IMG/VR virus record: IMGVR_UViG_3300031857_000939 | Location: 1-30,530 of that record | DNA from: a virus | Direction: 5' to 3' (one strand) | DNA length: 30,530 nt | Shown: positions 1 to 1,816 of the stretch, one piece after another | Numbering within the stretch: position 1 is the first letter of the stretch | How the letters are laid out: each line of letters begins with the position of its first letter | Position numbers and translations under genes: made by a program | The notes under the pieces: model-generated | The model's database searches: none | Seen by the model: only the letters and a program-made list of their open reading frames with translations | What the model was told of the DNA's origin: nothing

Positions 1-1073
1 CTGCCATGCTCAAACCGTCCTTGAAGTGACCAAATGATACGGTCGGTTTTTTTACGATTACCGTGGGTCAAGTCAACTATGTGCGAATATACATTATTCT
101 TCCGCATCAAGTCACTCAAATACGGCAAAACTGCGTTTTTTAACGCTCCACGCTCAATTCCTACAGAAAGTGGGCGATATTCCCGAATCTTAAGCAAAAT
201 GGTGGCGGCAGTCTCCCGAATGTCCCACCGTCCATAAACGATCTCTTTGACGAACCATTTCCCATCGTCAGTGACCTTGACCACCGCTATGGCGGTCTGG
301 TCTAGCCGCTTCTTGGAATTTGCCGCTTGTCTGGCAACCTCCTCAAAACCAGCCAAGTCACAGGCAATGAAGTAGCTCCCATACTCAGGCTCAACACCGT
401 ATTTCAGCCATTCTTCCTTAAAGATGTCAGAGCCAGCGTTATTGAACGAGGCAAGGTACTCTTGACCAAACGCAAAGCTAGATAACGTCTTCTTTGCACT
501 CTCAATCTCAGCCTCGTCAATCAAAGGGTTATCCTTGGTCGTGAAATGCCAAGATTTCCAGTCCTCATCCTCCCCATCCTGACCCAAGTTGTACAGGTCA
601 TAGAACCAGTTCCGACCCTTTGGCGTACCAATAAACATGGCACGACCCTTCTTATCCGACAACGAAGCTCTGATAACCTGCTCCCAAGTCTCTGGCTTAA
701 TGTCTGCCACCTCGTCTAGTACGGCGTATGTCAGACTGACACCCCGCAAAGTGTCAGGACGGTCAGAACCCCTTACATATATCTTTGCGCCGTTAATCAA
801 GGTCACTTCCATGTTGTTCACATGGCTAGACTGGATAATCTCACGCCCCACATCCAACAGGACATCCCAGACAATCTGACGAGCCTGACCTTGGGTGGGG
901 GCAACGTAAAGCACAGCACTGCCAGCGGGACAACTCAACCCCTCAATCAGTAAGGTGGTCACGGCAAGTCGTGACTTACCGCACCGCCTTCCAGCCACTA
1001 CGACCTTGAACCTCGTCTTGTCGGCGTATACCTCTTGTTGCCACGGCAATAGCGCAAAGTTCAGATCAGCCAT
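1..1073 (-). CDS. terL: Terminase large subunit, C-terminus cut by window edge
   Basis: This is the ATPase-nuclease motor that packages phage DNA into the procapsid. The frame read from the ATG at 1073 gives 357 codons with no stop before base 1. A Walker A motif GRRCGKS lies at residues 28-34. A Walker B motif (YAVLDEV) lies near 116-122, with the acidic pair D120/E121. A GTPKGRNW motif follows, typical of the ATPase coupling region. The nuclease domain begins with a first acidic residue in the context IACDLAG; the last nuclease residues lie outside the window. The start overlaps the 3' end of terS by 8 bases, the usual terS-terL order. Confidence is high because several independent motifs agree. 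Confidence 0.95.
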   Translation of the reverse strand, partial: MADLNFALLPWQQEVYADKTRFKVVVAGRRCGKSRLAVTTLLIEGLSCPAGSAVLYVAPTQGQARQIVWDVLLDVGREIIQSSHVNNMEVTLINGAKIYVRGSDRPDTLRGVSLTYAVLDEVADIKPETWEQVIRASLSDKKGRAMFIGTPKGRNWFYDLYNLGQDGEDEDWKSWHFTTKDNPLIDEAEIESAKKTLSSFAFGQEYLASFNNAGSDIFKEEWLKYGVEPEYGSYFIACDLAGFEEVARQAANSKKRLDQTAIAVVKVTDDGKWFVKEIVYGRWDIRETAATILLKIREYRPLSVGIERGALKNAVLPYLSDLMRKNNVYSHIVDLTHGNRKKTDRIIWSLQGRFEHG

Positions 1074-1491
1074 TCTTAGCCTCAATATCTTCTATGTCTT
1101 CAGGCTCAATTGTCGTTGTGGCGACAGTAGGTGCGCCAATGCCAGTAATAGTGATGTTGACTGCACTCCTCTGGCTCTTATCCTTCTCAAACATAGAAAC
1201 AGGCAGTGTCCTGTCTACGCACATCTTGATAGCCGCCATCTGTGCGGGGTGATTGTCATTCAACGCAATGGAAATCATCTTCTCAACAACATCCTTACCG
1301 CTAGACTTGATAAGCATATCCTTCAACTCTTTGAGCCGCTGGTGGTCAGTCTTAGGCAAGGCCAAGGCGGGATTCCTTGCGTATTCCTGTATCTGCCGCT
1401 TTAGGCCAAATGTGCCTTTGGGTCTACCAGCCTTCTTCTTTTGTGGCTCTGGCTGTTCATCCTGAATGTCATCAATGTGTTCTATGTTCAC
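1066..1491 (-). CDS. terS: Probable terminase small subunit
   Basis: This 141-residue protein lies directly upstream of terL and overlaps it by 8 bases, the position where small terminase subunits, which recognise the packaging site, are found. It starts at a GTG (1489-1491) preceded by AAGGAC. The N-terminus is acidic and is followed by a lysine run and an AT-hook-like AGRPKG (about residues 21-26), then predicted helices and an acidic C-terminal tail (PEDIEDIEAKNG). No catalytic motif is expected in this family. The function is assigned mainly from position and composition, because TerS proteins diverge quickly. Confidence 0.75.
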   Translation of the reverse strand: MNIEHIDDIQDEQPEPQKKKAGRPKGTFGLKRQIQEYARNPALALPKTDHQRLKELKDMLIKSSGKDVVEKMISIALNDNHPAQMAAIKMCVDRTLPVSMFEKDKSQRSAVNITITGIGAPTVATTTIEPEDIEDIEAKNG

Positions 1492-1560: not shown

Positions 1561-1816
1561 CTCTTGCTGGCGCAAAGTAACCGAACTACCTCCTTCAAGT
1601 CTTTGCTTGCTACTGTTCGGGGCTCCCTGCGTCCAGCACTAACACGCATGGGGATTGTGCAAGTCACGAGACGTGGTGGCGACTAAACAAGCACATCGCT
1701 TGGAGTGCAGTCCCCAGCCGTGTTGGTGAAAGCGGTTTGGCTCCGCTGGAAGTTTGTCGTTGCTGATTTGCATCCATACCCTGCCTCATGGGAGTCACCA
1801 ACTTCCCTTTTTTTTT
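1561..1816 (+). ncRNA. Predicted structured phage RNA with intrinsic terminator
   Basis: Nested inverted repeats fold this stretch into successive domains. (a) GCTGGCGC (1566-1573) pairs with 1629-1637 with one bulge, enclosing CCGAAC (1581-1586) with GTTCGG (1615-1620) and CAAG/CTTG. (b) A 22-pair stem: 1637-1646 with 1719-1728 and 1649-1660 with 1705-1716, separated by a 2x2 internal loop and capped by two small hairpins (AGTC 1662-1665 with GACT 1681-1684; CAAGC 1688-1692 with GCTTG 1698-1702). (c) AGCGG/CCGCT (1731-1747) with a 7-base loop. (d) GGAAGTT (1748-1754) with AACTTCC (1800-1806), then nine T. All four non-Watson-Crick pairs in (b) are G-U on the plus strand and would be A-C on the minus strand, so the plus strand is favoured. 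A weak -10 (TATGGT, 1549-1554) would start it near 1561; no good -35 is seen. Confidence 0.6.
1790..1816 (+). terminator. Intrinsic terminator of the predicted RNA
   Basis: GGGAGT (1790-1795) pairs with ACTTCCC (1801-1807) with one bulged T and a CACCA loop, followed directly by nine T (1808-1816). A competing longer stem (1748-1754 with 1800-1806) ends at the same T-run. No protein gene on the plus strand lies upstream, so the terminator itself argues for a plus-strand transcript here. Confidence 0.6.

Follow-up and report, generated by a model that had tools for sequence, protein, structure and literature searches.

We conclude that a short region beside the terminase genes of this phage is almost certainly an instance of an accessory locus for a modular structured RNA, in which one to four units combine standard stems with exchangeable folded tips. 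The region lies in IMG/VR virus record IMGVR_UViG_3300031857_000939, whose positions 1 to 30,530, the whole 30,530-nucleotide stretch analyzed, are here called the window. The original prediction, made from the window's letters, placed a plus-strand structured RNA at 1561-1816. Indeed, the plus-strand fold of 1540-1830 has an energy of −104.4 kcal/mol, compared to −86.2 kcal/mol in dinucleotide shuffles (z = −3.83), and beats 200 of 200 shuffles; 1561-1816 alone folds to −93.5 kcal/mol on the plus strand and −81.4 kcal/mol on the minus strand, which makes the plus strand 12 kcal/mol more stable. The four non-Watson–Crick pairs that had been named (1640-1725, 1655-1710, 1658-1707 and 1659-1706) are all present in the window fold at those positions, and all are G-U. 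The terminal hairpin with nine U is likewise evident, as a T9 at 1808-1816 following a terminator-like hairpin at 1790-1806. The central stem, described as having 22 pairs, exists, but it has 21 pairs in the minimum free energy (MFE) fold. The proposed run of consecutive stem domains needs one correction: comparative data support a cloverleaf for the 3′ part, and its P1 helix competes for bases with the outermost pairing of the long central stem (1637-1642 with 1723-1728).

All parts of the window RNA are on the plus strand. The 5′ domain (1566-1637) is a hairpin with the stem GCTGGCGCA/TGCGTCCAGC and, on the basis of the MFE fold and the relatives, an optional module. It is retained in locus L018, where the rest of the element is absent, and in L253 a shorter hairpin with GCTGGCG/CGCCAGC arms stands ahead of the first unit. 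Hairpin A (1640-1728) is a conserved, covarying stem with a hypervariable structured tip. Its 5′ arm, TAACACGCATGGGGATTG (1640-1657), is supported by arm-pair counts and a match to model R2 (56.1 bits), and the last seven bases (1722-1728) of its 3′ arm, CAGTCCCCAGCCGTGTTGGTG (1708-1728), double as the 5′ strand of cloverleaf P1. The intervening tip (1658-1707) forms two small hairpins with stems GTCAC/GTGGC and CAAGC/GCTTG and loops GAGACGTG and ACATC. Cloverleaf B (1722-1802; R1 model match at 1720-1805, 90.3 bits) directly abuts hairpin A with no gap. It comprises P1 (1722-1729/1795-1802), P2 (1732-1735/1743-1746), P4 (1779-1781/1790-1792), a variable P3 arm and a covarying loop-loop kiss (1739-1741 with 1783-1785). 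In the window alone the cloverleaf fold lies 2.7 kcal/mol above the MFE, with the kiss left uncounted. The terminator-like hairpin and T9 together (1790-1816) share bases with helices P4 and P1 on their 3′ sides. Thus, folding of cloverleaf B and termination would be mutually exclusive, and a switch between the two is possible in the window's clade. T-runs like that of the window are also found 3′ of the RNA in L001, L020, L036 and L045.

As judged from aligned sequences, covariation is present in the hairpin A stem, in the helices of the tip and in cloverleaf B. These covariation claims are based on alignments A1 and A5 and on arm counts; the R2 alignment, which contains two rows with hand-shortened tips, was used for searching only. 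Between the arms of hairpin A, ACACGCATGGGGATTG and CAGTCCCCAGCCGTGT, lies a tip whose length runs from 4 to about 80 nt, with a median near 47. Counting cells across 118 distinct arm pairs gave 1420 Watson–Crick, 169 G-U, 6 A-C and 57 other; when the consensus U-G pair is dropped, the ratio of G-U to A-C is still about 72 to 6. This asymmetry indicates selection on the plus strand in single-stranded form, as had been proposed from the four G-U pairs of the window, and on this ground we rejected a DNA palindrome. Because folded single-stranded DNA would give the same G-U sign, the placement of promoters matters as well. For cloverleaf B, RNAalifold predicted P1, P2 and P4 unaided, and 98.6% of the cells in an alignment of 34 sequences are paired versus 93.8% in shuffles. 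The kissing pair is A-U in 19 of the 34 sequences, G-C in 15 and broken in none. Relatives therefore show both conservation and compensatory change, and conservation restricted to a coding frame was not seen.

The tips, in contrast to this fixed chassis, are diverse and mobile. The 171 distinct tips group into 99 families, of which 62 are singletons; this suggests that small RNA folds of this kind form a large pool yet to be sampled. Forty-seven families occur in at least two loci; 38 of these are found with at least two downstream modules and 39 with at least two upstream flanks. The family of the window's own tip is present at 15 loci, where 13 different flanks occur on the upstream side and 13 on the downstream side, and stem A is found in 15 of 15. 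Both of its helices covary and its loops, GAGACGTG and ACATC, are constant, the invariance being partly by construction as the search pattern demanded both loops. RNAalifold returned for this family the fold already present in the window. Covarying stems with constant loops indicate that the tip fold itself is under selection, and the recurrence of the same tips with conserved folds between varied flanks indicates that tips are exchanged units under structural selection. When the 171 tips were compared with the fetched loci, with arrays masked, six matches were obtained, the clearest of which (29 nt) lies in another RNA-like element. Specifically, a segment at L239:1425-1453 and L254:5292-5320 equals an array tip of L209 and L221 and sits between GGATGCTGTGC...GCACAGACGC in an intergenic RNA-like element of another kind; this suggests a second scaffold with common modules. 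A tRNA-like look is limited to a few tips. At L102:1336-1521 and L116:884-1069 a tip with D-, anticodon- and T-arm-like parts stands on stem A, and real tRNA genes follow downstream; ARAGORN called a tRNA, of undetermined type, inside one array only (L208:6068-6140). The window's tip resembled group I intron P7/P8 by eye, a candidate that was rejected on the lack of an Rfam match and on the different fold of the tip family.

To trace the element among relatives, we used the window TerL as a query, which yielded 80 viral contigs that are 87-99% identical. The intergenic region compared across them is modular, with units varying by presence, length and tip: L018 lacks 1639-1809, L027 lacks 1541-1809, and L001, whose TerL is 99% identical, has one extra unit and different tips. 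Such differences, including the loss of whole units in L018 and L027, led us to reject a protein-coding origin. In L065, L051, L079 and L073 the same element is turned the other way round and lies immediately upstream of terS. Among 54 close terL relatives, 11 carry the element beside terS, in either orientation, and 43 lack it, so the RNA is accessory. In ten records without it at terS, no copy was found elsewhere. Arrays hold one to four tandem units, and with both models the element occupies essentially one locus per carrier record, its units side by side, with one extra weak R1 match in G023.

Patterns from the conserved parts retrieved 76 IMG/VR stretches with one and at least 120 with another, whereas two exact patterns had no match in 84,980 cellular species genomes. 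A blastn search of 50,697 phage records gave no match beyond one of 26 bases at E 0.5, and one of plasmids a single weak match; we take both as chance. A host or prophage origin was rejected on these results. Uncultured phages carry the RNA family widely, and none of the cultured phages searched showed it, which explains how it escaped annotation. The original prediction had also held the RNA to be apparently undescribed and proposed an Rfam search. The Rfam 15 covariance models gave zero matches to the window at the gathering threshold; over 1400-2400 at E values up to 10 the only matches were two chance microRNA hits on the minus strand, and in 18 related loci only tRNA, tRNA-Sec and int-alpA were detected. 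The int-alpA (RF02996) matches are at L202:5427-5494 (plus) and L201:2677-2753 (minus), the latter below the gathering score. The RNA is outside every Rfam 15 family, GOLLD, ROOL, pRNA and group I introns included. The literature searched, which included few subscription papers, yielded no description of such an RNA, nor of any RNA family that mounts exchangeable folded tips, each conserved in its own right, on a constant stem chassis.

In the window, terL (3-1085, minus strand; phrog_2, E 1.7e-43) runs off the end, and the adjoining gene at 1066-1491 (minus strand) is probably terS, given its position next to terL; a PHROG match sought for it was not found. Its transcription leads away from the RNA. 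The RNA of the window, like those of its clade, points in the direction opposite to terS, and beyond the T-run the next genes are all on the opposite strand. A strict promoter scan of the window found none. Adjoining the RNA, an intergenic stretch conserved among relatives (1936-2157) contains a cluster of DnaA-box-like sites (TTATCCACA), with the window's only two exact ones, and is a possible replication origin.

The location beside terminase genes, noted for the window, proved to be the usual placement and a trait of the family. In 90 of 183 pattern-fetched loci, a member of one terL family is found no more than four genes away, and in 12 a member of a second; several terS-like families also lie near arrays, and for the largest the median distance downstream is 26 nt. 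Most arrays are on the same strand as, and just ahead of, a gene, and the downstream genes vary among loci; in 20 loci (e.g., L133) a phrog_858 gene, annotated as a starvation-inducible transcriptional regulator, directly follows the RNA in place of terS. Promoter-like sites (score ≥11) precede 29% of arrays versus 5% of shuffles, a figure that related loci inflate, and the promoter-like −10 site is often 10-35 nt 5′ of the first hairpin. Of 27 tRNA genes in 199 loci, 20 lie no more than 400 nt from an array; every one of these is downstream on the same strand, and they are often tRNA-Met. Of the 199 arrays, 15 have such a gene within that distance and most do not. No protein family is common to all 22 carrier records, the maximum being 13. 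The best candidate for a shared protein partner, an HNH nuclease, is present in 12 of the 22 and so falls short of all carriers; the comparison is limited in that its non-carriers belong to a single clade. In 20 loci (e.g., L082), a small HNH nuclease (phrog_131) lies just upstream on the same strand. This small nuclease could reflect module exchange or merely the terminase neighborhood.

We infer that the RNA is transcribed, acts in trans and has host targets. As a mechanism we tentatively propose that the RNA acts in trans and offers its exchangeable domains to host factors. The stems (hairpin A, cloverleaf B and the optional 5′ hairpin) would serve as a shared scaffold or as a frame for processing; the tips would bind host molecules or titrate them, perhaps factors of defence or of translation, and would be swapped between phages as hosts change. 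As no protein family exceeds 13 of 22 carriers, either host partners or an RNA-only function is indicated, and tip exchange on a constant chassis combined with the lack of a common phage protein is best, if still tentatively, fitted by varying host partners. In the window, divergence from terS and the terminator-like end favor a trans role; this arrangement fits a stand-alone RNA, and many other loci fit a leader. Against the trans reading, most arrays are placed as a cis leader would be, tRNA-like tips are few, and the window scan for strict promoters was empty. The recurrent terminase-side placement is left unexplained by a decoy role. Locus and mechanism taken together are our best explanation, with a probability somewhat short of even. 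If tips do bind host factors, they would be an RNA counterpart of protein anti-defence repertoires. We think it rather unlikely that the system amounts to RNA-based modular host takeover or counter-defence, with one chassis and dozens of domains, each for a different host molecule and traded in the manner of protein anti-defence genes.

The strongest rival, which we nevertheless consider unlikely, is a cis leader of the terminase or late operon, acting as a put-like antiterminator or controlling the first gene; if correct, it would be a new route of phage late-gene control. The HK022 put sites, of about 70 nt, also have two stem-loops, and putL lies just 3′ of its promoter (PMC9378689). The excess of promoter-like sites upstream of arrays, the zero unpaired bases between adjoining helices and the short distance to the largest terS family all fit such a leader, but the window RNA and those of its clade point away from terS into a T-run, and the genes downstream differ from locus to locus. 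To our knowledge, moreover, exchangeable tips are not a feature of put. A packaging element, either a pRNA-like RNA assisting terminase or a DNA site of packaging start, would account for terL families within four genes in about half of the 183 loci and for the several terS families. The original prediction had listed a packaging RNA as an option, which found no specific support: 43 of 54 close terL relatives lack the element, its orientation with respect to terL varies between the two possible ones, and about 100 tip families would be superfluous. Strand asymmetry also speaks against a double-stranded DNA site, and we regard packaging as quite improbable.

Another self-assembling ornate RNA of the ROOL/GOLLD kind, with the variable parts as peripheral or cargo domains, is improbable. 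It would agree with the phage-borne, single locus per genome, the adjoining tRNA genes (often tRNA-Met) and the pairing of one conserved domain with a variable remainder, but the element is much shorter and matches neither family in Rfam. We also know of no ROOL or GOLLD RNA with tandem units and swapped tips. Guide-like spacer arrays in structured repeats, or attC-like single-stranded DNA cassettes, would share the repeat-variable-repeat layout, the rapid exchange of variable parts and the loss of whole units in close relatives, and folded single-stranded DNA would tolerate G-T pairs too. However, the tips are folded and conserved in families, few match outside arrays in the fetched loci, the clearest in an RNA-like element, and promoter placement and tRNA linkage suit an RNA, making this reading highly improbable. 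A CRISPR- or TIGR-type guide array was rejected on the comparison with the fetched loci, where the variable segments gave six matches outside arrays, the clearest in another RNA-like element.

Among known systems, the phage RNAs GOLLD and ROOL are encoded close to tRNA islands; in GOLLD the 3′ region is conserved and the 5′ region less so (PMC12286853). The element resembles them as a phage-encoded structured RNA that is part conserved, part variable and, in 15 of 199 arrays, near tRNA genes, and differs in its length, its lack of a covariance-model match, its repeated stem units with interchangeable tips and its absence, by exact patterns, from the cellular genomes searched. Like phi29 pRNA, it is a phage RNA considered for a link with DNA-packaging genes; unlike pRNA, it is modular and accessory, with 11 carriers among 54 close terL relatives, and has no Rfam match, and its phages encode terL and a probable terS. 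Integron attC sites have conserved arms, a variable terminal structure and tandem occurrence. The element shares all three, but its stems are conserved well past short boxes, no gene cassettes lie between units, and it is linked to promoters and tRNA genes. With HK022 put it shares adjacent stem-loops in a phage leader, often just 3′ of a promoter; many loci have this promoter-proximal position on the operon strand, while the window and its clade do not. Unlike put, some members are stand-alone RNAs that point away from the operon and have a T-run behind them, and the element has tandem units, hypervariable structured tips and a cloverleaf with kissing loops. By analogy, then, the element appears somewhat ROOL/GOLLD-like in manner, being phage-borne and tRNA-linked, and has the put geometry.
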